DNA of 64,000 bases, taken from Pyrinomonadaceae bacterium (GTDB lineage: Bacteria > Acidobacteriota > Blastocatellia > Pyrinomonadales > Pyrinomonadaceae). Location of the stretch: the NCBI GenBank assembly GCA_025054715.1, contig JANWYH010000006.1:1-64000 (forward strand), written 5' to 3'. Both the position numbers and the translations under genes were made by a program. The notes beneath the pieces are model-generated. The model was not told the origin of the DNA. It did no database searches and worked only from the letters and a program-made list of their open reading frames with translations. Within the stretch, counting starts at the first letter, position 1. Each line of letters starts with the position of its first letter. Below, piece after piece: positions 2,080-48,389 of the stretch.

Positions 2080-3474
2080 ATGAAAGTAGGTCTAACATAT
2101 CCAACACCTGAAGGCTCTAAAACAATTTATCTCGAAGAAAGCTCACGTCTTACAATTGGTCGTTCATCTGAAGCTGATTTGCATTTTAATGAAGACGCTT
2201 TATCTCGTCTTCATGCTAGCATTTACCGAGAAAAAGATCGTGTCTGGATAGTTGATGAAAACTCAACAAACGGCACCTCTGTTAACGGGCAGCCTGTTTC
2301 AGCTTCAGGAAAACTACTAAAAAACGGAGATATCATAGAACTTGGCAAAAAAATTAAAATCACAGTTCAGGTAGAGCAAAACAGCAAAACCGAATTTTCG
2401 CTTCTACCGATAGTCATCATAGCATCTTCATTCTTCTTACTTGTTTTCGCCCTAAGTTTTATCGTAATAAAAACTCTTACATCTACAGAAAGAGAATCTT
2501 ATCCAACCCGAAAGCCAACTGAGATAGAAAAAACCGATAGTTTCAACTCATTTGACTCATCGCCTACTCCCGCAAGAGCTGAAAACGCTGAAAAAGTTGA
2601 AAAAGCTGAAAACAAGGAAAGCTATGAAACTACTAACACTGTCCAAACTACACCCATTCGCACTCAGGCAAGGAAAAAATTTTACGAAATGACTGATTCG
2701 GAAAAGGACGAATACATCAAAGAGAAAGCAGAGAAAATTTCCAGAATTATTGGCAATCAAGTAGCCGAACCGATTCCACCCGAAGCCGTAAAAAGCATAC
2801 GCGTTCATCTTCAAGGATACATAAACCGCATAAGACAAAACCGAATAGACGATTGCCGCCAAGGCTCGTTTACAAGAAGCGATACCGTAACCATACTTGA
2901 AAGAGCCAGTAGAAACGCCCCTTTCATTATTCGTTCGTTTTATGCGGAAGGATTAGATCCCCAAATAGGCATTTATGTAGCAATGATAGAATCTGAACAT
3001 TGTCCGTGTCTTCAAAGCCCCACTGGCGCACTCGGAATGTTTCAATTCGTTCGCTCTACAGGAAGAGAATTCGGACTTCAAATAAAACAAGATGCGTCAC
3101 CGACAAACCCGGATGAAAGATGCGATCCTGAAAAAGCAGCGAAAGCAGCAGCTCGCTACTTAAAATCTCTAATAAGCCGATTCGGCTCTGGACCAATAAG
3201 TTTTCCACTAGCAATTGCAAGCTACAATAGTGGTCAAGGAGGTCTCAGCCAGAATCTAGAAAAAGCACTTAAGAAAGCAGCAGATCAAGAACGATCATTC
3301 TGGACTTTAGTAGCAAATCAGCAAATCTTTGAGGGCAAAATCGGCGAGCAGTTCCGTAGAGAAAACGTAAAATACGTCCCTAAGTTTTTTGCTGCCGCAA
3401 TCATTGGCGAAAACCCACAAGATTTTGGAATAAATTTAGCACCGATATCAACTTACACGAAACCGAACTATTGA
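2080..3474 (+). CDS. FHA domain - transmembrane - lytic transglycosylase fusion
   Basis: 464 aa. Residues about 1-95 form a forkhead-associated phosphothreonine-recognition domain with GRSSEADL (27-34), SRLHA (42-46) and [10 protein letters not shown] (61-70). A single membrane helix follows at about 107-132. A Ser/Thr/Glu/Lys-rich linker leads to an SLT-type transglycosylase domain from about 270. The catalytic Glu is probably E304 in AMIESEH, with GALGMFQF at 316-323 and the substrate-groove ASYNSGQGG at 380-388. The layout predicts a cytoplasmic FHA domain and a periplasmic peptidoglycan-cleaving domain. The ATG is fixed because the FHA fold begins at once. No kinase gene is adjacent. Its 3' end overlaps the convergent 3468-4499 gene by 7 bases. 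Domain calls are firm; a phospho-regulated wall enzyme is inference. Confidence 0.85.
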
Positions 3475-4499
3475 AGAACAACCTTGAAAGTTTTCCCGTC
3501 ACCTCTCAAAGCCACAAGGTGAAAATAGAGTTCACGCTTTATTGAAAAGGGAAAATGAATTGTTCCGAACATAAAAAGCGTTCCATTCCAGAAGTCTTTT
3601 CTAAAAGTCAAAAGTTTTTTGCACTCGTTTGTCTGAGTGTTAATTCCCCATATCGAGGCAACATTTTCTTTCTGAGAAGGAGCATTCTCTGCCGTCGTTG
3701 TAAAAAATATCCATTCACCTAATCTTTTTGAGTAATAGACAGTTCCATCAACCTCACACAAAACTTCACGCTCGCCAGTGCTTCTTTCAACTTTGTATAT
3801 GTAGTTTTTGCGAAACTCGGCATCAGTGCCGTAGTAAAAGGCATCTTTGTCGAAAACGATACTTACGGCACGCCAAGTCTCGTCACCCTCACCAATAACA
3901 TCAAAGTCCCGAAAGTCTGAAGAAAAACTCAAAATCCTACACTCTTCAGCCTTATCTCCTGTTAAACAAAACATTCTTCCGCTGAAATCGTCAAAATAAA
4001 TTCCGTGAACGTGTCTTATTGAACCAGACGGAAAGTCATAAACGACTTCGATACTATCTTCACGAGGAGAATATCTATAGATTCGCACTGATTCTCGACT
4101 TGGGTTTGAGAGATACTCGCCAAAAAAGATATTTTCTTGCTCATCCAAAGCACAAGCTGAACGCAAAACTCTGCATGGGCGTTCAAGTGGTATCTCAAAA
4201 TAAGTCTCATTTCTTATAATTCCAACCGATTTATCAAATGTTACAAAAAAGTCGCCATTTTTAAGGCAAACCACGTTTGTAATCATGAAGCGCAGAAGTC
4301 TTTGAAAGATGCGAGTCCTGCTGAATAACTCTTTCCAAAGCGGAGCCTTTACCGAAACAATCTTTTTTATTTGACCGTTTGGAATAGAAAATTTGTAGAT
4401 TACATTTCGACGAGAAACTATAAGTTCATCGGAATTTGCCCATTCTACGGCATAGCCTCTTAAGTTCTTGACTTCCTCTATCTTAAAAGCCTGATCCAT
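3468..4499 (-). CDS. Beta-propeller-like protein of unknown function
   Basis: 343 aa, cytosolic by appearance: no signal peptide and no membrane helix. The sequence is a series of short beta-rich units with aromatic and acidic turns (IYRYSPREDSIEVVYDF, RILSFSSDFRDF, IYKVERSTGEREVLCEV, IWGINTQTNECKKLL), as in six- or seven-bladed propellers, but I cannot assign a family. The ATG at 4499 is preferred over the upstream GTG at 4505 because AAGGAAG lies about nine bases before the ATG. It overlaps the 3' end of the carbamoyltransferase gene by 17 bases, so the two are probably translated together and may act on the same glycan or metabolite. That functional link is inference. Confidence 0.6.
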   Translation of the reverse strand: MDQAFKIEEVKNLRGYAVEWANSDELIVSRRNVIYKFSIPNGQIKKIVSVKAPLWKELFSRTRIFQRLLRFMITNVVCLKNGDFFVTFDKSVGIIRNETYFEIPLERPCRVLRSACALDEQENIFFGEYLSNPSRESVRIYRYSPREDSIEVVYDFPSGSIRHVHGIYFDDFSGRMFCLTGDKAEECRILSFSSDFRDFDVIGEGDETWRAVSIVFDKDAFYYGTDAEFRKNYIYKVERSTGEREVLCEVDGTVYYSKRLGEWIFFTTTAENAPSQKENVASIWGINTQTNECKKLLTFRKDFWNGTLFMFGTIHFPFSIKRELYFHLVALRGDGKTFKVVLQ

Positions 4500-6240
4500 T
4501 GACACTATCTTCCTTACGGCAGAAGAAAGGCCCTATTACAAGAACATCCATTTTTGTTCTCAAGAAACATTCTATAGCTTCACTTGGACGGCAAACTATC
4601 GGCTCGTTTTCATTAAAGCTAGTGTTTAGAACAACAGGTAAGCCTGTCTTACGCTCAAAGGTTTTTATCAAATCATAATAAAGCGGATTTTCTTGGCGTG
4701 TAACAGTTTGAAGTCTTCCTGTATCATCAACATGGCTTACGGCAGAAAGACGACGACGCCACTTGGGCTTAATCTTGTAGACATGTAGCATAAAAGGCGA
4801 TGGATGAGTGTGCTCAAAAATCTCAGCTTGATACTCTTGAAGGACCGATGGAGCGAAAGGACGAAACCACTCGCGATGCTTTACTCTGGCATTTAGAACG
4901 TCTTTCATGTTCGGAAGTCCCGGATGTGCAAGTATTGAACGATTGCCAAGTGCTCGAGGTCCCCATTCCATTCTCCCTTGAAACCAGCCTACTACTTTTC
5001 CATTTTTTATCTCTTCAGCAGTTTTGTCTATAAGCTCCTCTCTTGAGTACTCAACAAACGAAACTTTGTATCTTTCAAGCTCAGTTCTTATTTGATAGTC
5101 AGAGTATTCATCGCCGAGATAAGCATCTTTCATTATCCATCGGTTGCCCTCTTTCAGAACAACGTTACTTACATAAAGCGCTGCACCTAAGGCTAGACCC
5201 TCATCACCTGCAGCTGGTTGTATGCAGGTTTGTCTAAAGGGTGTTTCATAGAAAATCTTTCCATTTGCCACACTATTCAGGGCACATCCGCCGGCAAGAA
5301 CTAGCTTTTCAGATGGCACGAAACGGTAAAGCACATTCAGCAAATGCATGTAGTACTTCTCAAAAACTTTTTGCAAAGCGTAGGCTATGTCCATGTCTCT
5401 TCTTGTAATTTCTGTGTAGGGTTTGCGAGGCTTACCAAAGCTTTTTGTGAAAATATCAGAATAAAGTCTTTGAACAATCATTTCTCCTTTTTCGTTGATT
5501 TCCACTCCTTGATTTGCTCCAAAGGGAATGAAAAATTCTGGATTTAACTCAAACCCGTCAGGTTTTTCCAAAAGACACCTTTCAAAAAAATCAACATAAG
5601 TATCCGTCCCTAAGGGAGCAAGTCCCATGACCTTTCCCTCATCACCATATTTCTCATACCCAATGAATTGACAAACGGCGGTGTAAAAAGTGCCAAGCGA
5701 ATGCGGAACGAAAATTTTATGAAGGACTTTTATTTCCGATCCTACGCACTCCGAAAACAAGCAGGAAACAAAATCTCCAGAACCATCAATTGTTATTCCG
5801 GCGGCATGCTCCCAAGGTGAAATAAAGTAGGCACTAGCTGTATGAGCAAGGTGATGCTCGACATTGTGTTGGGTAAACTTAAGCTCTTCGGGTGTTACTC
5901 CACATTCTTGGGCGATAAGGCTCTTTAAGTTATCAAATCTTTGCTTACTTTCTTTCCTCATCTTTGCAAAGTTTAGAAGTCGTGAAGGATTGCTAAGAGC
6001 AAATTTCAGTTTCTGTTTAAGGTTTGCTGAAGTGTCACGGCCTATAGCGACATGATCGATATCTGAAAATTTTAACCCCGCCACCTCCAGACATCTCAAA
6101 ATAGCTTGTCGCGGAAATCCTGCATAGTATTTAACACGATTCAGTCTTTCCTCAGCTATAGCTACAACCGGCTTACCATCAACAACTATTGCAGCAGCGG
6201 CTCCAGCGTGGAAAGCATTTATTCCTAAAATAACACTCAT
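4483..6240 (-). CDS. Carbamoyltransferase of the NodU/CmcH/TobZ family (copy 1)
   Basis: 585 aa. Family members use carbamoyl phosphate and ATP to form a carbamoyl-adenylate and transfer the carbamoyl group to a hydroxyl of a sugar, antibiotic or lipo-oligosaccharide. The N-terminal Kae1/HSP70-like domain is recognised by [40 protein letters not shown] and the phosphate loop [21 protein letters not shown] follows. The C-terminal YrdC-like domain carries [28 protein letters not shown] and [13 protein letters not shown]. The start overlaps the sucD stop by four bases (ATGA), so it sits in the proS-sucD transcription unit. The acceptor is unknown. A second homologue lies at 44135-45841, and the two differ enough to be old paralogues or separate acquisitions. 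Confidence 0.9.
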
Positions 6241-36764: not shown

Positions 36765-38486
36765 TTACCAACGAACAGGCTTTAGTGTTGGTCCTACGAC
36801 GTGAACCCCAGAAATAACTTCACCTCTGTTATTTCTTACGCTTGTATCGTCAACCCGATACTGATGAGCGCTATACCAAACAACTATATCCTGTCCATCA
36901 AGTGATTCACCACTTACCCAAGGAGCGAGATTAGCTGCAGCACTTGTGTTAGGATCATCTAGCTCACCTGGATTATCCGGTGTTCCTTGAAATCTCAATA
37001 ACCAGAAGTCTCCAGCTCCAAAGGTATCAACCAGATTTCCGAATGCATCAGTTACACTTCCATCATTCATTCCTGGTGTGATTATATAAGCTTCATCACC
37101 ATTTGCATTCTGAATCAAGAAACTACGGTTAAACTGATAATCCCGAAAGATAGCTGCTTCAGTCAGGATTTGTCTTATAAATTTTCTTCCTCGCTCAACC
37201 TGATAAATCTTGTTATTAGGCTGAACAATGTCGAAGTCAAAGCGCCAGTAAACATGATGAGTTCTAGGATTACACACGCAGGAGTTAGCAGTAGAAGCAA
37301 ATCCATATCGAGGACGAATCGTGCCATCAGGAGCAAATCTCCATTCCATTATGTAACGATACCAGCCTGCATTCATCTCGGTAACCAGGACAACCTCTTC
37401 CCCGAACCCAACGTCTTGGCGATAGATCGCCACTCCTTGAAAGTTTCCTGTGTCATTTCTAGTTTCGATGGCCGTGGTTGCAACCGTCCCAGGAGGAAGG
37501 ATTGCTATACCACCGTTTACACCATTTGGAAAGGTAACCCCGGAACTTGGTATCTGAAAAAATCCTTCAGCATACTGCCAATCTCGATAAGGGCCGCAAG
37601 TATTGTTTACATACTGCACAGTCAATATAGGAGCATGCCCACGCTTTAAGACGGACTTACCCTTGTACTTAACATCCCTAATCTCTAGACCTGAACGTTC
37701 GCTAGGTCTTCCCGAAGAAGCCGAAGGTCTAATAACGAGCATTTCCCAAAGAGGCATACCGCCTTGAGTAACAGTAAGCTGATACTGTCCCGGAATTCCC
37801 GCTCCTGTAGCACCTTGCCCAGAATTAGGTATCCCGCAGGACTCCGGTCCTGCTTTTGATGTAGGAGGAGCTTTTTCTGCATAGCGTATAACTTTTTCAT
37901 TCTTAAAGCTTACGCTTACTATTTCTTGAGAACCGGTCTTACTGTATTGCAACCCTACATTCACTAGTCTTTCACCATTTATGTAAGTCGTAGGTGGCAT
38001 TGGTTCAAAGAATTCAATTTCATTTCTGTTAAAAGAGTCCGCAAAATCAGGTGATTTGCTAACAATTTCATAAGCAGCCGAAAGTTCTTCGTAACCTACA
38101 CCCGGATCAAAAATCTCACGTCTTACGGAAACGTTTCTATCCGTTTTTATGTCACTTTCGACTATAATGCACTCATCATTTGTGTAGTCGTAAATAGTTA
38201 ATCTAAAGCGTGTAGGTGGCTTGCTAGGCTGTGATTTATCCACGACAGAGCTATCATCGATCAACTCAGTCGCAACGATACGATACTTAATTCCCTCAAG
38301 CTCCCGTCGAACCGCTGCATCCTGCAAAACTCTTTGACGTGCCAGATCTAATTCAGCCTGTGTCGGTCCCCATGGAACGACTTTTATTTCTAGCTCTGCC
38401 CGCTTCCTACGAGTGTTTTTCGCTTCTTCTGAAGCGAAAACTGAAAAAGAAAGCACTAAAGAAAGAAAAACAGCAAGCTTTTTCAT
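36765..38486 (-). CDS. Exported copper-amine-oxidase-like protein with altered cofactor site
   Basis: 573 aa. Signal peptide MKKLAVFLSLVLSFSVFAS. The C-terminal half follows the copper amine oxidase catalytic domain: HAPILTVQYVNNTCGPYRD, IETRNDTGNFQGVAIYRQD, YIMEWRFAPDGTIRPRYGF, the strand THHVYWRFDFDI and the closing DIVVWYSAHQYRVDD...GPTLKPVRW (family: DIVVWY..HH....LKP). In real enzymes the topaquinone tyrosine lies in N-Y-D/E-Y; here the equivalent is W-Y-R-Y (W375-R377), so Tyr376 is kept but both flanks differ. The copper ligands would be H410/H411 and H541, with shortened spacing. The catalytic Asp motif (DxG) is not obvious. It may be a non-enzymatic relative or use a different chemistry. 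A terminator follows. Confidence 0.65.
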   Translation of the reverse strand: MKKLAVFLSLVLSFSVFASEEAKNTRRKRAELEIKVVPWGPTQAELDLARQRVLQDAAVRRELEGIKYRIVATELIDDSSVVDKSQPSKPPTRFRLTIYDYTNDECIIVESDIKTDRNVSVRREIFDPGVGYEELSAAYEIVSKSPDFADSFNRNEIEFFEPMPPTTYINGERLVNVGLQYSKTGSQEIVSVSFKNEKVIRYAEKAPPTSKAGPESCGIPNSGQGATGAGIPGQYQLTVTQGGMPLWEMLVIRPSASSGRPSERSGLEIRDVKYKGKSVLKRGHAPILTVQYVNNTCGPYRDWQYAEGFFQIPSSGVTFPNGVNGGIAILPPGTVATTAIETRNDTGNFQGVAIYRQDVGFGEEVVLVTEMNAGWYRYIMEWRFAPDGTIRPRYGFASTANSCVCNPRTHHVYWRFDFDIVQPNNKIYQVERGRKFIRQILTEAAIFRDYQFNRSFLIQNANGDEAYIITPGMNDGSVTDAFGNLVDTFGAGDFWLLRFQGTPDNPGELDDPNTSAAANLAPWVSGESLDGQDIVVWYSAHQYRVDDTSVRNNRGEVISGVHVVGPTLKPVRW

Positions 38487-39777: not shown

Positions 39778-40794
39778 ATGAGTAATCTAGAAATAAAAAG
39801 ATATAAGGTAGTGATCTTGGGTTCTGGTCCTGCAGGTCTTACAGCCGCTATTTACGCATCTAGAGCCCAGCTAAACCCGCTAGTGATTGAAGGTCCTCAG
39901 CCCGGCGGTCAACTTATGATAACAACTGACGTAGAAAATTATCCGGGATTTTCAAAAGGAATTTTAGGTCCTGAACTAATGAAAGAGTTTCGATTGCAAG
40001 CAGAGCGCTTTGGAACAGAATTCAGCGATATTTGGATAGATAAAGTTGACTTAAGCCGAAGACCGTTTAAGCTTTACGGCAAACCTGGTCCCATCAGCAA
40101 CGAAATAACCCATCTAATCAAAGCCGACTCTCTAATCATCTCAACCGGGGCTTCGGCAAAATGGCTAGGAATACCGGGAGAAGCTCCCGTGCCTGAAGGC
40201 TTTGGTGGAAATGGGGTTTCAGCCTGTGCAACCTGCGACGGCTTCTTCTTTCGCGGCAAAGAAGTTGTTGTTGTAGGTGGCGGAGATACAGCAATGGAAG
40301 AAGCACTCTTTTTAACGCGTTTTGCTACCAAAGTTACAATAATTCATCGTCGGGACCAATTCCGTGCCTCAAAAATAATGCAGGAAAGAGTCTTTGCAAA
40401 TCCTAAAATTCAAGTCTTGTGGAACACAGAGGTCAAGGAAATTCTTGGCGACCAAAAGGAAGGAGTAAACCGCATTAAAATCATAAACAACAAAACCGGC
40501 GAAGAAAGTATTTTTCCTTGTCAAGGAGTATTCATAGCGATTGGACATAAGCCAAATACGGAGCTATTTCGAGGTATTCTCGAAATGGACGAGTTAGGCT
40601 ACATAAAAACAGAAGGACGAACGATGAAAACCAGCGTTCCTGGAGTTTTCGCATGTGGAGACGTTCAAGACAACTATTACAGGCAAGCTGTAACTGCTGC
40701 TGGAACTGGTTGCATGGCTGCTATTGATGCAGAAAGGTTCCTCGCCGAACACGGAGAAGCGGAAGATCAGGAAGTTGAAAAGTCAGCAGCATGA
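39778..40794 (+). CDS. trxB: Thioredoxin reductase
   Basis: 338 aa NADPH-dependent flavoenzyme reducing thioredoxin. FAD-binding GSGPAGLTAAIYASRAQL (15-32) and GGQLMITTDVENYPGF; redox disulfide C150-A-T-C153 in the CATCDG motif; NADPH-binding VVGGGDTAMEEALFLTRFA; and C-terminal GVFACGDVQDNYYRQAVTAA-GTGC. The extra C-terminal tail HGEAEDQEVEKSAA is unusual but short. No thioredoxin gene is adjacent. The start lacks a Shine-Dalgarno sequence, but the ATG at 39778 immediately precedes the conserved fold. Confidence 0.97.
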   Translation: MSNLEIKRYKVVILGSGPAGLTAAIYASRAQLNPLVIEGPQPGGQLMITTDVENYPGFSKGILGPELMKEFRLQAERFGTEFSDIWIDKVDLSRRPFKLYGKPGPISNEITHLIKADSLIISTGASAKWLGIPGEAPVPEGFGGNGVSACATCDGFFFRGKEVVVVGGGDTAMEEALFLTRFATKVTIIHRRDQFRASKIMQERVFANPKIQVLWNTEVKEILGDQKEGVNRIKIINNKTGEESIFPCQGVFIAIGHKPNTELFRGILEMDELGYIKTEGRTMKTSVPGVFACGDVQDNYYRQAVTAAGTGCMAAIDAERFLAEHGEAEDQEVEKSAA

Positions 40795-40868
40795 TGCAGT
40801 CTGGGCTATAAAAAGTGTTGTAGCTTTTCGCAAATTTACGAAACTTTTAAATCAAGCCTTACCTTCGT

Positions 40869-42752
40869 CTAATCAATAAATCGCTGAAACCATAATTCAA
40901 GCATCAATAAGGTCCATAACTGAAAGGCGTGATCACGTTTTCCTTCCGTATGTTCCGTTAAAAGCTGAGTGACGGCTTCGGGTTTGAATATACCGCGTTT
41001 TAGAGCCTTTTCTGAAAGCAGAATTTCTCTTATAAAACCTTTCATCTCATTGCGAAACCATTTCCCAATAGGAACGCCAAAACCCATTTTACGACGATAA
41101 ACAGCTTGACGGGGCACTAGTCTTGCCGCTATTTTCTTTAGAAACGACTTCGTCTGAAAACCGTTTGTTTTTATATCTTCAGGCAAACTTGCGGCAAATT
41201 CTATCACTTTGTGATCTAAAAATGGCGAACGAGCTTCTAGACTAACAGCCATCGAAGCAATATCTACCTTAACTAACAAATCATTAGGAAGATATGTCAT
41301 TTGATCGGTAAGCAAACATTTATCAATAACTCCAAGACCATCAGAACAGGAAAACCATCTCTTTACTAAATCACATGCTTTGTGGTTTGCTACAATCTGA
41401 GCAAACTCATTAGTGTAGATTTCTGCTTTTTTCTCAGAATCAAAAACCGATACCCATCTGAAATACCTCTCTTCTGTAGGCAAATCCGCTGCTTTCAAGA
41501 ATCTTTTTAAGTCTCTTAACCGCGAACGCCTTGTTTCTGATGTAGGGATCAGGTTTACAAGTTTTTCAATAAAACTCTTCCTTAGAAACTTAGGAACGCA
41601 GTTGTAAATCTCAGCAATCTTCATTGCAATATATCTTTCGTAACCAACGAAGCTTTCATCTCCTCCATCGCCGTTCAAGGCAACGGTTACATGCTTTCTG
41701 GTTTCACGCGAAACATAGTAGGTAGGAACAGCGCTAGAGTCAGCATAAGGCTCTCCATAGTGGTCAACTAGCTTCGGCAGAATTTCTAGAGCATCAGGTT
41801 TCACTATGAACTCATGATGAACCGAGCCAACATGATTTGCAACAATTCGAGCATACTTTAGTTCGCTGAAATCCTGTTCTTCAAATCCTATTGAAAAAGT
41901 TTTCACAGGTGTATCGCTTTCTTGAGCCATCAGCGCAACAACGGTCGAAGAATCTACCCCACCAGAAAGAAAAGCTCCCAGCGGAACTTCTGATATTAGC
42001 CTTAATCGAGTGGCCTCTCTTAATAAGCGTATCGTTTCTTCTATAGCTTCTTCCTCAGATATCCTGATTTTCTTTGAAAAATCCGGTTTCCAATACCTTT
42101 CAGTCTTTATCTTCCCATCTTTCCAGATAAGCCAATGTCCTGGCTCTAGTTTGCGAATTTGCTTGAAGGCCGTTTGCGGCGCCGGCACGCAAAGATAAGA
42201 CATGTAAGCATCTATGGCTTCGTAATCAACTTCACGCGATGCTTCCGGATGCGATAATATCGCTCGAAACTCAGAGCCAAATATAAGGTTGCCATTATCT
42301 TGATAAGAATAAAGAAGTGGCTTTTTACCTACACGATCCCGAGCCAAAAACAAGCTTTTTTGCTCATCATCCCAGATTGCAAAGGCGAACATACCTCGCA
42401 ATCTCTGCAAACAATCAACTCCGTAAAGCTGATAAAGATTAACTATAACCTCCGTATCAGAATTTGTGTATAACTCAAATCCTTTATCTAACAAATGCTT
42501 GCGTAGGTCACGATAGTTGTATATTTCGCCATTAAAAACTATCCATTTTTTTTTATCGTAGCTATGAATAGGCTGTTTTCCTCCGGCAAGATCAATTATT
42601 GAAAGCCTTCTCATTGCGAGCCCGACATTTTCTTTAACAAAGAAACCTTCATCATCAGGACCTCGATGCACTATCGTATTATTCATTCTCTGCAAAATCC
42701 CCAAATCTGCTGCTTTTCCATCTGCATTTACATAACCAGCTATACCACACAT
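40869..42752 (-). CDS. asnB: Asparagine-synthase-type amidotransferase
   Basis: 627 aa. N-terminal class II glutaminase with nucleophile Cys2 (MCGIAGYVN) and PIHSYDKKKWIVFNGEIYNY, RGMFAFAIWD, LFLARDRVGKKPL. The synthetase domain has LSGGVDSSTVVALMA, GDGGDESFVGYERYI and SPFLDHKVIEFAASLPED. The sequence is close in style to the amidotransferases associated with exopolysaccharide or XrtA systems rather than plain cellular AsnB, and the neighbours (GT-C-like protein, carbamoyltransferase) fit that. It may amidate a uronic acid in a glycan; asparagine synthesis cannot be excluded. Start six bases after the membrane protein stop. Confidence 0.88.
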   Translation of the reverse strand: MCGIAGYVNADGKAADLGILQRMNNTIVHRGPDDEGFFVKENVGLAMRRLSIIDLAGGKQPIHSYDKKKWIVFNGEIYNYRDLRKHLLDKGFELYTNSDTEVIVNLYQLYGVDCLQRLRGMFAFAIWDDEQKSLFLARDRVGKKPLLYSYQDNGNLIFGSEFRAILSHPEASREVDYEAIDAYMSYLCVPAPQTAFKQIRKLEPGHWLIWKDGKIKTERYWKPDFSKKIRISEEEAIEETIRLLREATRLRLISEVPLGAFLSGGVDSSTVVALMAQESDTPVKTFSIGFEEQDFSELKYARIVANHVGSVHHEFIVKPDALEILPKLVDHYGEPYADSSAVPTYYVSRETRKHVTVALNGDGGDESFVGYERYIAMKIAEIYNCVPKFLRKSFIEKLVNLIPTSETRRSRLRDLKRFLKAADLPTEERYFRWVSVFDSEKKAEIYTNEFAQIVANHKACDLVKRWFSCSDGLGVIDKCLLTDQMTYLPNDLLVKVDIASMAVSLEARSPFLDHKVIEFAASLPEDIKTNGFQTKSFLKKIAARLVPRQAVYRRKMGFGVPIGKWFRNEMKGFIREILLSEKALKRGIFKPEAVTQLLTEHTEGKRDHAFQLWTLLMLELWFQRFID

Positions 42753-42758
42753 CCCTTT

Positions 42759-44138
42759 TTAATTCTCCCTGCCACGTATCATTCCCATCGTCTGAATTTC
42801 TCTCAGCCTTCTAACAAGAGCTTCATTCTCTCTTTTTTCCCTCGTAACAACCCATCCAACAGCAACAAAAATAAAAAGGAAAACTTGGATTTGAGTTCGT
42901 TGGCGATATGCAGTTCCTATATTTCCCTGAAAAATCGAATAGCTAATAGTAAGCATTAAGCTAAAAATTAAAATTGCCAGAGTTTCCCTGAGTTTTCTTT
43001 TGATCGAATAGGAAATCCCTCTGATTAAAAAGGGGATCATCATCCACCAAACAAGCATTTCAGGTTGAGTAAGCGCAGCTCTCAAGCTAGTCACCTGCCA
43101 TGGAAAGGGTGCAAACATCAAATTCACAAATCCTGCTGGCAAAACAGCAACGGCACCTTCTACAGTCGAAACATCTGCTTCTTCTTGAAACCCAGAAGCT
43201 GCACTTCTTGCCAGATCAAGACGCGAAATGTTTACCCTTTCTAAGGTGGCATATTTTTGCAAATCCTCGCTTACACTTCGCAAAGCTCCTATATAGGTCA
43301 GCGCTGTTCCAAGCACAACGAGAGCAAAAACACGACGAAATACTGAAACGGCTGTGTCATCTGTTCTAACGCCGACTATAAAGCTTGCTAAAATGGCTAC
43401 AGCTAGCATCGGGAAGATGTAAAATCTCAGTGAGATGATTCCAACGAGACTGACAAGCAGCAAGACAACGTACAGTAGCTTAAACTCCTTCTGCAACCTT
43501 ATAACTAAAAGAATGGAAAGCGCAAGAAAAAACATTATCATTCCATCCTTAAGCATGAAGCTTGACCAGTTAATAAACCCCGGCATGAAACCCACTAGAA
43601 GGCTTGAAATCAAAGCAACACGACGGTTACTGTAAATTTCCCTAGCAAGCATGTAAACAATTGGAACAGCTCCAGAAGAAATTGAAGCACAAAAGAAATT
43701 ACCAGCGACCGGATTTTGATCTGTAAATAGATACAGGAAAGCTATCAGATGATACATCCCCCAACCAGGTCCGCTGAAGCTGAAAAAACGATGATAAAGC
43801 AAAGGATCATTTTCTTTTGTTATGTTTATTAAGCCGCTATAGTGATCTGCCAAAATCTTCCCGAATTCATTATAGGCTCTTGCATCCGAAGCAAAATAAG
43901 TCCAAAAGTCAGCATAGTAAGCTATCGAACCGAAAATCGTGCGAGCTGCCAGTGCAAGAATGAAAAGTGTCCAAAGAGTCTCTTTTTCTCTCGAGTCACC
44001 TTCTGATAGATTGACTATCAGTGCACCAAATGGAAGAGAAAAGAAAGCGCAAACTAGAGTCACCATTAGCCCATCAGGGAAGTTGATGGTAACAGTCATA
44101 ATCACAGCTAGAAAAAGAACAGGTAAAGCTTTTCTCAT
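42759..44138 (-). CDS. Polytopic membrane protein, probable GT-C-type glycosyltransferase
   Basis: 459 aa with about 10-11 membrane helices. After two N-terminal helices the loop contains FWTYFASDARAYNEFGKILA, with an Asp pair resembling the acidic first-loop motif of dolichyl/undecaprenyl-phosphate-sugar-dependent PMT/ArnT-type enzymes. GMYHLIAFLYLFTDQNPVAG, YMLAREIYSNRRVALISSLL and GFMPGFINWSSFMLKDGMIM follow the PMT_2 helix order. It ends in a charged, Arg-rich cytoplasmic tail. The start overlaps the carbamoyltransferase stop by four bases. It is probably a lipid-linked-sugar transferase or glycan polymerase; wzy-like polymerases look similar, so the assignment is tentative. Confidence 0.55.
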   Translation of the reverse strand: MRKALPVLFLAVIMTVTINFPDGLMVTLVCAFFSLPFGALIVNLSEGDSREKETLWTLFILALAARTIFGSIAYYADFWTYFASDARAYNEFGKILADHYSGLINITKENDPLLYHRFFSFSGPGWGMYHLIAFLYLFTDQNPVAGNFFCASISSGAVPIVYMLAREIYSNRRVALISSLLVGFMPGFINWSSFMLKDGMIMFFLALSILLVIRLQKEFKLLYVVLLLVSLVGIISLRFYIFPMLAVAILASFIVGVRTDDTAVSVFRRVFALVVLGTALTYIGALRSVSEDLQKYATLERVNISRLDLARSAASGFQEEADVSTVEGAVAVLPAGFVNLMFAPFPWQVTSLRAALTQPEMLVWWMMIPFLIRGISYSIKRKLRETLAILIFSLMLTISYSIFQGNIGTAYRQRTQIQVFLFIFVAVGWVVTREKRENEALVRRLREIQTMGMIRGREN

Positions 44139-45841
44139 TTTCTTAAAACTAGATTATTTTCCAAAACCAAAGCATCAAAGCTAGCACTTTGGAAAGTTTT
44201 TATAGCATCTTGCGGTGTGCAAACAATCGGCTCCTGGATATTAAATGATGTATTCAAAAGAACAGGAATTCCAGTCAACTTTCTAAATTCATTGATAAGA
44301 TTCCAGTATCTCGGATTCGTTTCTTTGCTTACCATCTGTGGACGCGCTGTTCCGTCAACATGAACAACGGCGGGTATTTTCTTTTTCCACTGTTCGGCTA
44401 CTTCAATGACAGTAATCATAAACGGATCGTAGTGATCTTTTCCAAAAATTTCACACCCATATTCTTCGAGAATTGAAGGAGCAAGTGGGCGGAACCATTC
44501 ACGCAGTTTGACCTTATGATTTAGAATTTCCCTCATGTCAGCACGTCTTGGATCAGCAAGGAAACTACGAGCCCCGAGGGCACGCGGTCCCCATTCCATT
44601 CTTCCTTGAAACCATCCAATTATAGCCCCTTCGGAAAGCATCTTTGCAAGCCTCGGCAAAAGCACCTCATCTGGCAACATCTCATATTTCAGACCTGCTT
44701 CATCTAAGGCTTTCTGACATTCTTCATTTGTAAAAGAAGGCCCCCAATAAGCATGTTTCATCACGAATTTTCTAGGTTTATTGAGAATCTGATGCCAAAC
44801 GTAATATGCAGCACCGAGAGCACAACCAGCATCGCCTGCGGCAGGTTGAATAAAGAAGCCATTAAAAGGAGTTTCGTGAAAAATTCGTCCGTTCATCACT
44901 GAGTTAAAGGCTACGCCGCCAGCCATGCAAAGATTATCCTCACCCGTCATTTCTTTGATTTTTCTAACCAGATGAAGCCCTGTCTCTTCCAAAACTTTCT
45001 GAGCCGAAGCTGCAATATCCCAGTGTCTTTCGTTGAGCTCTTCTCCAGGTTTTCTGGGACTTCCTAACTCTCTAATGATAGGCTCAGGAAATTGGTAATG
45101 CTTTGCAAGATGATGATCTAAAACCTTTATGTTAAATCTAAAATCACCATCACCATTTTTTATGAGCACTTTCTCAGCAAAAAAATCGTAAAATCTCGGT
45201 TTCCCATAAGCGGCAAGTCCCATTACCTTCCATTCATCGCCTTCAAACATATCAAATCCAAGAAAATTAGTCACGGCTGAATAGAATTGTCCGAGACTAT
45301 GTGGCAACTTTATTCTTTTGAGAACCTTTATTTTATTCCCTTTACCATGGCAAAAAAGCGTCGTTGTATCTTCGCCGGTTCCATCCCATGTCAGAATAGC
45401 TGCTGATTCAAAAGGTGAGACAAAAAATGCCGAAGCCGCATGGCTTTGATGATGCTCAATGTAGTGAAACTTGAAGTCACTAGGACCAAAACGTTCTCTA
45501 AGACGCCTCGGATGAAGAAACATTCCGAGGTAGCTATCGCTTACTTGAGTAACACCGCGATCTACCCTAGCCTTAAACATGTCACGCGAAATAAAGGCAG
45601 CCTTCAAGGCTTGCATAGCCTTATGTCGCAGAATCCAAGGCTTCCAATAATGACCGACATGTTCAACATCCTTTAATTTTATGCCTGCGTAGTCGAGGCA
45701 AAATTGAACCGCGTTATAAGGAAAACCGCTATGATGTTTGCGTCTTGAAAATCTTTCCTCTTCAGCTGCAGCTATTAACTCACCATCTCTTATCAAAGCC
45801 GCTGCTGCGTCACCCAAAGTTGTCAAACCTAAGATATACAT
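44135..45841 (-). CDS. Carbamoyltransferase of the NodU/CmcH/TobZ family (copy 2)
   Basis: 568 aa. N-terminal ILGLTTLGDAAAALIRDGEL and AAAEEERFSRRKHHSGFP, then YIEHHQSHAASAFFVSPFE, the loop TWDGTGEDT, CMAGGVAFNSVMNGR and the C-terminal [33 protein letters not shown] and LLNTSFNIQEPIVC. Same architecture as the 4483-6240 copy but clearly divergent, and it leads a unit with a GT-C-like protein and an amidotransferase. A carbamoylated surface sugar or lipid is a reasonable product. The ATG lies seven bases behind a TATAAT box. Confidence 0.92.
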   Translation of the reverse strand: MYILGLTTLGDAAAALIRDGELIAAAEEERFSRRKHHSGFPYNAVQFCLDYAGIKLKDVEHVGHYWKPWILRHKAMQALKAAFISRDMFKARVDRGVTQVSDSYLGMFLHPRRLRERFGPSDFKFHYIEHHQSHAASAFFVSPFESAAILTWDGTGEDTTTLFCHGKGNKIKVLKRIKLPHSLGQFYSAVTNFLGFDMFEGDEWKVMGLAAYGKPRFYDFFAEKVLIKNGDGDFRFNIKVLDHHLAKHYQFPEPIIRELGSPRKPGEELNERHWDIAASAQKVLEETGLHLVRKIKEMTGEDNLCMAGGVAFNSVMNGRIFHETPFNGFFIQPAAGDAGCALGAAYYVWHQILNKPRKFVMKHAYWGPSFTNEECQKALDEAGLKYEMLPDEVLLPRLAKMLSEGAIIGWFQGRMEWGPRALGARSFLADPRRADMREILNHKVKLREWFRPLAPSILEEYGCEIFGKDHYDPFMITVIEVAEQWKKKIPAVVHVDGTARPQMVSKETNPRYWNLINEFRKLTGIPVLLNTSFNIQEPIVCTPQDAIKTFQSASFDALVLENNLVLRK

Positions 45842-45848
45842 AGCTTAA

Positions 45849-45854
45849 ATTATA
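45849..45854 (-). promoter_or_regulatory. -10 box of the carbamoyltransferase/GT-C/amidotransferase unit
   Basis: Perfect TATAAT on the minus strand ends seven bases before the ATG at 45841, so the transcript would begin at or next to the start codon. The -35 region at 17 bp (TTTATC) is weak. Confidence 0.5.
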
Positions 45855-45897
45855 TTCACAAAGCTTTACCCGATAAAAGCCTTCATCAAAAAACAAG

Positions 45898-48273
45898 TTA
45901 TCTTAATCTTTCATCGTAGAGCATTTGGTAGATGCGATAATTCGACATTACCTTAAAAACATAATCCTTCGATTGTGCAAATAGTATTTCTGGAACATAG
46001 CGATCCGGCTCATTTGATCTTGAACGCACGAGCCAACGCAACATATTCTTTTCACCGCCATTGTAAGAAGCAACGACAGCTTGAGGCTGCCCGGGGAAAA
46101 GCTTAAAAAGCTTCGATAAATACTCCGCACCGAAAGCTATTGAAATTTCCGGATCATATAAATCTTCCACAGAGAAATTCTTCCGTCCCATTTCAGTAGC
46201 TATTTGACTAGCAGTTGATGGAATAAACTGCATCAATCCTCTAGCTGCAGCCGATGATTTTGCAGACGGCTCAAAACTGGACTCTTGCCTTATAATCGCA
46301 AGAATTAAACGTGAATCTATCCCTTTCTGTTCGGCATATTTCAAAATCAGATCGGAGTAAGCTTTCGGGTAAAGAATCTTTAGTTGTTCTTTAGGTATCA
46401 GCCTGATTTCAAAATCAGCAGGCAAGCCGCTCCATAAACTCTCCATCCATGCGATCGAGCGCCTTGGCATTTCTCCCTTCACGTAAAAAAGTGCAAGAGT
46501 ATATGCAACATCAGAAGGAAATACCGAAAGCCCATTGTCCTTCTTCGCAAGTCTTTCCCTTAAAGAAGCTTCTAACTCAACGGCACCTTCGTCGTAAAGG
46601 TGCAACGAAAGTAGCTTCCTCGCCAGACGGCTATGATAGGAGCTACTTTTAGAAAGGATTTCATCAAATCCAAGCAGTCGCAATTTCGGGAGTTTTTGAT
46701 ATGACGGAATCAGCGAATAGGTTTTCTTAAGTAGCTCAAGCGTTTCTTTTTTCTCGGCGTCAATTCTAATGCAGTTCTGTAACGTTTTGCGAACCTGTTC
46801 GGCATTTACTTTGTTTAAGCTCCTCATTTGCTTACCTTCGCACTCTTCTAGCCTTCTCTTTATAAACGTAGCAGCTTCCGGTTGCTGAGCCAGCCCTTTC
46901 AACCTTTCATTTGCACGCCATCCATAATAACTTTTGCGACCGTCCGAAATCGAAAAATAAAGCTCTATTGATTCAGAATACTGCTTTAATTGCTCGAGAC
47001 AATACGCTTTCAAAAACACAACTTCATCTTCGTTAGTTCCACCAAAAGCACCTCTCCCGCGTAAAACACTCACATCCTTCTGGAGTGCTTCTAGCACTCC
47101 CAAAGCGTTGACCCAGTTACCTTGAGCTATCAAAATCCTCGCCTTTACAAAATTAGCTAAAACAGCTGGGCTTTTATCCGGAAATTTTTCTTTGGTTTTT
47201 TCTACCCAATTCAGGGCGTCACCTTCTTCTCCCATATCTCGGAACGCATCTATTATGTTTAGATAAACCCGATCCAGTCTTTCATCTTCAGGATAAAGAT
47301 CAATATAACGCCTGTAACGGGATATAGCTTCGCGTGGCTTGTTTACTCTTGAAAATGCTGAAGCTGACTGAATCAAAGCATCACTAGCAAATTCACTATT
47401 TGGAAACTCTACTAGAACACGCTCGAACCATTTTATCGCTTCATGATAATCTTCTTCAGCAAAGAAGCTTCTTCCTATAAGATACATAGCTTCTGACAGC
47501 AGAGAGGATTGAGGGAAACTTTCTACAACTGCTAAAAAATGCGAGCGAGCATCTCGAAATTCACGATTGAAGAAATAAACCTTACCGCGCTTGAGATGTT
47601 CGAGATCTGTCAAAGCCTGTTTCTTATCTAGTTCGTCAAGCCCCTTTACAGCTATTAGATCGAAATCATCTGGTCTGGATGGATCCTCGCTCTGTTGGAG
47701 AATTTTCGTAAATAGTGCTTTTGCTTCTTCCGTTCTTCCACTTTTCAGAAATGAAAGACCTAAAAGAGTTTGCATCTCGCGATCGGGGCTATAGTCCTGC
47801 TCTGAAAAATTTATAAAAACTGCGTTTTCTACTTGAGCAAAATCTTCACTTTCAAAATAACTCCTTGCTAATCTCCTAATCGTCGCTTCTTTGAGCAAAC
47901 TCTTCGGCGATACGGTCAAAAGCTCATAAAGAAAAATTCTTTCAATAACTTGATTCCCTGCATCTTTACTTATACCTGCCATATGCCACAAAGCATATTC
48001 TTTCAAAACAGAAGAACGTTTGATAACCGACAGGTAATTTGCCGACGCAAGAGCAAAATCTCCCACCTTTTCGGCAACTCTTGCCAGTAAATAGTCATAC
48101 TCACCCGCATAAAAAGCCTTTCTATTAGCCTTTCTTAAGTTCTCGAGGATTTGAATAACCGACTCGTAATCCTTAGCTTCAAGCCTTTCTTGAATTCTCG
48201 AAATTTCCTGACCCATTGAACCCCAAAAAAAGCAAAAAAGAACGGCAAAAAGTCGAAAAGCTCGTCTAATCAT
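45898..48273 (-). CDS. Soluble lytic murein transglycosylase with TPR repeats (Slt70-like)
   Basis: 791 aa. Signal peptide MIRRAFRLFAVLFCFFWGSM, then a long superhelix of TPR-like repeats (ALASANYLSVIKRSSVLKEY, EAIKWFERVLVEFPNSEFAS, EAISRYRRYIDLYPEDERLD). The C-terminal catalytic SLT domain has the Glu in LILAIIRQESSFEPSAKSSA, then ARGLMQFIPSTASQIA and VVASYNGGEKNMLRWL. It cleaves glycan strands between MurNAc and GlcNAc with anhydro product formation. The start at 48273 has AAGGGCG upstream; the longer frame is not signal-like. Divergent from paoA-like gene. Confidence 0.92.
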   Translation of the reverse strand: MIRRAFRLFAVLFCFFWGSMGQEISRIQERLEAKDYESVIQILENLRKANRKAFYAGEYDYLLARVAEKVGDFALASANYLSVIKRSSVLKEYALWHMAGISKDAGNQVIERIFLYELLTVSPKSLLKEATIRRLARSYFESEDFAQVENAVFINFSEQDYSPDREMQTLLGLSFLKSGRTEEAKALFTKILQQSEDPSRPDDFDLIAVKGLDELDKKQALTDLEHLKRGKVYFFNREFRDARSHFLAVVESFPQSSLLSEAMYLIGRSFFAEEDYHEAIKWFERVLVEFPNSEFASDALIQSASAFSRVNKPREAISRYRRYIDLYPEDERLDRVYLNIIDAFRDMGEEGDALNWVEKTKEKFPDKSPAVLANFVKARILIAQGNWVNALGVLEALQKDVSVLRGRGAFGGTNEDEVVFLKAYCLEQLKQYSESIELYFSISDGRKSYYGWRANERLKGLAQQPEAATFIKRRLEECEGKQMRSLNKVNAEQVRKTLQNCIRIDAEKKETLELLKKTYSLIPSYQKLPKLRLLGFDEILSKSSSYHSRLARKLLSLHLYDEGAVELEASLRERLAKKDNGLSVFPSDVAYTLALFYVKGEMPRRSIAWMESLWSGLPADFEIRLIPKEQLKILYPKAYSDLILKYAEQKGIDSRLILAIIRQESSFEPSAKSSAAARGLMQFIPSTASQIATEMGRKNFSVEDLYDPEISIAFGAEYLSKLFKLFPGQPQAVVASYNGGEKNMLRWLVRSRSNEPDRYVPEILFAQSKDYVFKVMSNYRIYQMLYDERLR

Positions 48274-48389
48274 TTCGCCCTTATGGATGATTTTAATCTT
48301 TTCTTGCAAATGAACGAAAAGAACAAAACTCAATTTCCAAAAACTTCAAATTTATGTCAACATGTAGAAAGATAGGGAGATTGTGGAAA

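Follow-up and report, generated by a model that had tools for sequence, protein, structure and literature searches.

The three genes described here lie side by side on the minus strand of a 64,000-nucleotide stretch of DNA from a Pyrinomonadaceae bacterium (GenBank assembly GCA_025054715.1, contig JANWYH010000006.1, positions 1 to 64,000), referred to below as the window. They encode a carbamoyltransferase (Carb), a polytopic membrane glycosyltransferase (GTC) and a glutamine amidotransferase (Asn). We suggest that this trio forms a decoration module within a surface polysaccharide pathway of the Wzx/Wzy type, a reading to which we give a probability of roughly two in three. If correct, Asn would pass ammonia from glutamine to the carboxylate of a uronic-acid sugar, giving a uronamide, and Carb would use carbamoyl phosphate, activated with ATP, to carbamoylate a sugar of the same glycan. 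GTC would act in the membrane, probably on its periplasmic side, and would move a sugar or a glycan to the growing or finished unit from a donor linked to polyprenyl phosphate. The substrates, the order of the steps and the action of all three enzymes on one glycan are what we infer. The rest of the pathway would be encoded elsewhere in the genome (contigs C2 and C21) as the result of a split of an ancestral locus. A decorated Wzx/Wzy-type glycan is an ordinary kind of system; the enzyme variant and the split layout found here are unusual.

44135-45841, minus strand: carbamoyltransferase (Carb), 568 amino acids, of the NodU/TobZ/GdmN family, in a clade without the loop-1 histidine
42759-44138, minus strand: polytopic glycosyltransferase of GT-C fold (GTC), 459 amino acids
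40869-42752, minus strand: AsnB-type glutamine amidotransferase (Asn), 627 amino acids, with Cys2 and an SGGVDSS loop

A sequence-only reading of the window had described these genes as one compact unit. Their coordinates, order and strand, the ATGA overlap of Carb and GTC (44135-44138) and the six-base gap between GTC and Asn (42753-42758) are all present in the sequence. Their G+C content is 0.41-0.42, against 0.38-0.44 in the rest of the window. Random neighbours in relatives had been named beforehand as the outcome that would speak against a unit; they were not seen, and the genes recur together in one order. Given the strong family matches and the recurrence in other genera, the arrangement is beyond chance.

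The family set comprised 89 genomes (G000 to G088, own genome included). Orthologues were accepted at identities of at least 72% for Carb, the next Carb match within the family being at 51%, and at least 61% for Asn; one GTC match was taken per genome, and matches outside the family and second GTC matches were left out. The genome searches with Carb and Asn used a threshold of E 1e-100; some short or weak fragments of Asn may have gone unlisted, and all Asn counts across the family are lower bounds. GTC has an orthologue in 77 of the 89 genomes (a number that takes in short fragments and matches of 24-30% identity), Carb in 28 (three partial) and Asn in at least 71. All three are found together in at least 26, and in at least 15 of these they form one run with gaps of up to 300 bp, always in the order Carb-GTC-Asn. 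GTC and Asn are within 300 bp of each other in at least 53 of 69 family genomes and within 6 kb in at least 62; for GTC and Carb the distance is up to 300 bp in 17 of 27 and up to 2 kb in 25 of 27, and for Carb and Asn it is up to 6 kb in at least 24 of 27. On wider scales, 96 of 145 genomes (own included) have a GTC match at E 0.001; in a set of 297 taken from across the phylum, 41 have one.

A contig search with GTC alone found no relative, and a search with the Carb alignment did: it gave 55 loci, of which 41 are acidobacterial by title, Pyrinomonas methylaliphatogenes among them, and 14 are not. Contigs labelled Acidimicrobiales or Actinomycetota (L127, L135, L146, L148) carry a Carb 67-77% identical to the acidobacterial one, partial in L146; misbinning or transfer is a possible source. 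A pairing of Asn and Carb outside acidobacteria is seen on a Streptomyces plasmid (NZ_CP109497.1), where an annotated asnB overlaps a carbamoyltransferase gene by one base.

What surrounds the trio in relatives points to the kind of pathway it serves. Recurrent neighbours were clustered over 40 regions around GTC, chosen from the matches, and representatives were named. They include three groups of GT4 glycosyltransferases, a GT2, an RmlA-like nucleotidyltransferase, a dTDP-sugar isomerase-like protein, epimerase/dehydratases, methyltransferases, an acetyltransferase and a 600-residue protein with a WecA-type half (PF00953 transferase). The same groups were marked in the 55 loci around Carb. 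Among ten further proteins scanned, the three of about 500 residues, from three loci and upstream of the glycan genes, are Polysacc_synt flippases (PF01943/PF13440). In locus L116 a protein behind a gene with tetratricopeptide repeats (TPRs) matches Wzy_C at 26.9 bits, below the cut-off of 31.7, its open reading frame (ORF) being cut by the locus end. In sampled loci, relatives have alongside the trio a polyprenyl-phosphate sugar transferase, a flippase and a Wzy match, the marks of a Wzx/Wzy-type locus. The "surface glycan or lipid" of the sequence-only reading is narrowed by this locus content to a Wzx/Wzy-type glycan, and as far as sequence comparison goes the glycan-pathway reading of the trio is well supported.

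The genome under study has the same components in pieces. The trio is on contig C20. Contig C2 carries GT4a, GT4b and the epimerase, and contig C21 carries GT4c, a WecA-like protein with a CoA_binding_3 half, a TPR protein and a Wzy_C protein (78.8 bits); in both cases these are full ORFs well inside the contig, and the glycan locus is thus spread over at least three places. In the sister genome, G001, the Carb-GTC pair is accompanied by the epimerase, GT4b and GT4a, and Asn is on another contig, beside RNase PH and an Asp/Glu racemase-family gene. Both genomes seen of this genus therefore have a dispersed locus with open genes, which in many relatives is in one piece. Three UDP-sugar dehydrogenase matches in the genome under study could supply uronates.

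Carb is a NodU/TobZ-type enzyme, as had been proposed: both Pfam domains are matched (Carbam_trans_N at 193.4 bits, 9.6e-57, cut-off 24; Carbam_trans_C at 235.4 bits, 3.6e-70, cut-off 27), and its alignments with GdmN (9.8e-96) and TobZ cover most of the protein. It ends where the extra C-terminal part of GdmN begins. The iron ligands of GdmN are given as H133, H137, D156 and D333 in the available text of PMC9633730; the corresponding residues of Carb are H130, H134, D153 and D337. In the same text H27 of GdmN is the general base, universal in the GdmN subclade, and the H27N enzyme is inactive. Carb shares the two domains and the four ligands with GdmN, TobZ and NodU, and differs from GdmN in the absence, across the whole sampled clade, of this loop-1 histidine. 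The positions concerned are as follows.

45809-45814, minus strand: codons of Carb G10-D11, where most sampled relatives outside the clade have H-D or H-G-D
45440-45454, minus strand: Carb H130-x3-H134, aligned to the GdmN iron ligands H133/H137
45110-45115, minus strand: Carb H243-H244, aligned to the end of the GdmN substrate loop 4', candidate replacement base

Clade members are at least 60% identical to Carb of the window, and outside rows less than 50%. The outside sample was a chosen one, with 10 plasmid records from the best 40 of 326, 15 sequences from relatives' genomes and, for the rest, sequences of loci already analysed. None of the 48 clade rows has the histidine (they stand for 47 genes, L149 and L203 being one gene), and 36 of 37 outside rows do; an automated count gives 37 of 37 by taking in a distant histidine in an insertion of the exception, L187. 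That sequence, from a Streptomyces plasmid (NZ_CP108815.1), has a long insertion in this region and no histidine just before the loop-1 aspartate. A smaller first sample had the histidine absent in 43 of 43 clade rows, and its 22 outside rows included 19 with H-D and one with H-H. At this place the clade has LTTLGD and its nearest outside group INAYHGD. In a quick maximum-likelihood tree, made with the loop-1 columns left out, the 48 clade rows are on one side of a branch (Shimodaira-Hasegawa-like approximate likelihood ratio test, SH-aLRT, 100), so that one deletion suffices to account for the loss. The HHDD set of ligands is complete in each of the 48 clade rows and each of the 37 outside rows, and none of the 48 clade rows has lost the tyrosine that pairs with GdmN Y82 in the alignment. 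Two members of the clade are found outside a glycan locus: L212, beside genes for ribosomal protein S2, elongation factor Ts and peptidase S13, and L213, beside a peptidase S13 gene.

The strong conservation and the complete set of metal ligands argue for Carb being an active enzyme. If so, either another residue stands in for the missing base or the acceptor is different, for instance an amine, which would give a ureido sugar. The H243-H244 pair, present in 47 of 48 clade rows, is the candidate for the former. H243 was at first taken to be confined to the clade, as none of 22 outside rows had it; this was given up when HH was found in 10 of 37 outside rows, those of the nearest group. Regarding the latter, TsaD transfers to an amine, and TsaD of this genome (LGIETSCDET) has no histidine there and has the same glycine-to-aspartate spacing (LG-x5-D); this parallel with loop 1 of Carb is no more than suggestive. 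StdF, a NodU-like enzyme, is reported to carbamoylate a lysine amine in the accessible part of a preprint (PMC13174530). By analogy these cases may point to an amine acceptor; neither proves it. A tentative scenario, which we consider rather doubtful, is that a deletion of one residue removed the base from the clade without ending its activity, because an amine acceptor needs no base or because H243/H244 took over. If true, Carb and Asn together would produce a sugar with a ureido or carbamoyl group and a uronamide, and many Pyrinomonadaceae would have the glycan that contains it. The earlier word "carbamoylated" keeps the support of the family and the iron ligands; with the catalytic-base histidine missing from the clade, which group is carbamoylated is left open.

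That Asn is an AsnB-type amidotransferase is agreed on by its family matches and its residues: Asn_synthase in Pfam (9e-101) plus GATase domains, an N-terminus that reads MCGI from residue 1 (with the glutaminase cysteine) and the synthetase PP-loop SGGVDSS at residue 263. Its best NCBIfam model is TIGR03108, eps_aminotran_1, at 672.7 bits. The available part of PMC7468200 places WbpS and WbqG in TIGR03108 and describes them as needed for uronamides; deletion of PGN_1234 (WbpS) abolishes the uronamide. Asn resembles WbpS, WbqG and PGN_1234 in its AsnB architecture, N-terminal cysteine, PP-loop and glycan-locus setting; unlike them, it is under the curated cut-off of the family and its substrate is a predicted one. 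The word "amidated" in the sequence-only reading thus has the closest curated family on its side and the score against it. Moenomycin has one sugar with both carbamoyl and uronamide groups, as predicted here; it differs in being a secondary metabolite of Streptomyces and not the product of a Wzx/Wzy locus. The amidotransferase MoeH5 is treated in PMC8778134, in which the word carbamoyl is absent.

For GTC, sequence gives a Pfam match to PMT (2.3e-11), and a PDB sequence search found no match at E 10. An AlphaFold2 model (pLDDT 85.1, pTM 0.88) was compared with known structures by VIA-align. It reaches Z 20-22 over about 300-350 residues with AglB, STT3, PglB and ArnT (AglB: Z 22.2, root-mean-square deviation 4.1, 303 residues aligned; ArnT: Z 20.5, 4.2, 306). 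Down to Z 9.5 nearly all rows are GT-C enzymes or subunits of the glycosylphosphatidylinositol transamidase, and the next rows are at 7.2 and 6.7. Foldseek gave five matches with E <0.001, all of them oligosaccharyltransferase chains. The model comparison bears out the glycosylt­ransferase-like protein that had been proposed, and by its predicted structure GTC belongs among the GT-C enzymes, many of which use polyprenyl-linked donors. Residue 85, acidic in 34 of 34 aligned proteins (D in 28, E in 6), probably lies in the first periplasmic loop and would be catalytic; R66, K197, R238, Y240, R306, N406 and R412 are invariant in the same alignment. The predicted fold and this acidic residue are shared with ArnT and PglB/AglB/STT3. 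Unlike these, GTC has no soluble C-terminal domain in the model, which ends in a long helix, and no PDB sequence match at the threshold above. A divergent form of GTC, less than 30% identical and with a GDED motif, is found next to Carb in L105, L107, L111, L116 and L128 and upstream of Carb in L130; L119 and L129 have a tandem pair of GTC copies.

Other roles can be suggested for GTC. It could move a finished lipid-linked oligosaccharide, amidated and carbamoylated, to protein or lipid, and the trio would then serve a glycolipid or a protein-linked glycan. Its highest structural scores are with AglB, STT3 and PglB, an exosortase is encoded in the genome, and TIGR03108 proteins accompany such systems (PMC7468200, available in part). 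However, ArnT scores nearly as high, the terminal helix is followed by no soluble domain, and the exosortase is on a different contig (C11), where the Asn paralogue about 14 kb from it is not that of the trio; these points make this role unlikely in our view. A link of the trio itself to an XrtA/PEP-CTERM system was rejected, the single exosortase match being on C11 and the trio on C20. GTC might instead be the repeat-unit polymerase, with the Wzy_C protein beside the TPR gene acting as ligase. GTC diverges fast (58% identity to the sister genome, compared with 92-93% for Carb and 76% for Asn), and 6 of the 34 aligned rows are of the divergent form, five of which occupy the same position beside Carb; fast divergence and replacement of forms are often seen for polymerases. 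Yet GTC shares its fold with ArnT, STT3 and other GT-C enzymes, for which we know of no polymerase activity, and Wzy_C is a separate gene; we would not expect GTC to turn out to be a polymerase.

One may also doubt that Asn and Carb act on a glycan at all. Asn passes the cut-off of TIGR01536, asn_synth_AEB (495.6 bits against 267.1), and does not pass that of TIGR03108, as an ordinary asparagine synthetase standing beside glycan genes by chance would. That it scores higher with TIGR03108 than with this model, and lower still (321.6) with the AsnB model NF006949, and that it stays within 300 bp of GTC in most family genomes that have both, makes such a coincidence quite improbable. As for Carb, loss of catalysis, with a structural or binding role in its place, would explain why the residue whose change to asparagine kills GdmN (PMC9633730, available in part) is missing throughout the clade. 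It would be hard to reconcile with the ligands and the tyrosine kept in every clade row, and Carb is the most conserved of the trio; we regard a dead enzyme as quite unlikely.

Several observations weigh against the decoration-module reading. Carb has no counterpart of the GdmN base, its H27 region reading TLGDAAA. The Asn score is below the TIGR03108 cut-off of 816.9, and there are three other Asn relatives in the genome; four TIGR03108-like proteins score above 560 bits there, none of them above the cut-off, and the paralogues could overlap in function. Of the 69 family genomes that have both GTC and Asn, 43 gave no Carb orthologue at the threshold used, several of these genomes being incomplete. 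A 21.7-kb locus of the cyanobacterium Laspinema (L144) has the order GT4b, Carb, methyltransferase, Asn, GT4c and WecA-like protein, with no GTC match (Carb 62% and Asn 41% identical to the nearest queries), so the three genes are not an obligate unit. The separate Wzy_C gene leaves the exact step of GTC ambiguous, and no flippase was identified beside the parts of the locus scanned in this genome. Taken as a whole, the carbamoylated and amidated surface glycan or lipid of the sequence-only reading holds as regards a shared, conserved locus, and its chemistry is a prediction from sequence and model comparison.

Upstream of Carb the following features are found.

45849-45854, minus strand: TATAAT, 7 bases ahead of the Carb ATG, promoter role putative
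45898-48333, minus strand: lytic transglycosylase gene with TPRs, upstream of Carb, 56 bases away

The hexamer is where the sequence-only reading had put it, and it is a weak candidate for the promoter of the trio. A sigma-70 scan lists no two-hexamer site there, and its 8 sites over 40500-46200 compare with an average of 11.3 in shuffled sequence. With a gene on the same strand ending 56 bases upstream and no terminator-like site listed between it and the Carb ATG, read-through into Carb is equally possible. The hexamer was also tried as evidence of a leaderless promoter and rejected: among 87 ATG-initiated ORFs from stretches of this genome, TANNNT is no commoner 6-7 bases before the ATG than elsewhere (5 and 4 at 6 and 7 bases, 7 at 0, 6 at 14 and 15), and Shine-Dalgarno-like tetramers peak 6-10 bases before it. 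The lytic transglycosylase gene has no match in the 18-kb Carb-GTC region of the sister genome (L055).

There are further carbamoyltransferases in the genome. A second, distant one in the window (4483-6240, minus strand, about 41% identical) has its loop-1 histidine two residues earlier and overlaps a gene of 345 amino acids (3468-4505, minus strand) that has no Pfam match at E 1e-4; a search of viral contigs with it gave no match. A third is on contig C2, two ORFs from GT4a. Elsewhere in the window, 36765-38486 (minus strand) encodes a 573-residue protein with a weak match to a copper amine oxidase domain (32.2 bits, cut-off 27).

Among the matches listed in a literature search of titles and abstract openings, with most subscription journals outside its range, there was no publication on the trio or on the missing histidine. 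If our reading is right, three loosely annotated genes are tied to one conserved acidobacterial glycan pathway, for which concrete chemical groups can be predicted. The genome would also offer an example of a glycan operon whose genes have been scattered with the enzymes themselves left intact. The missing histidine makes it testable how a carbamoyltransferase may work when it lacks the base to which the first step is ascribed, and whether this loss signals a change from O- to N-carbamoylation.

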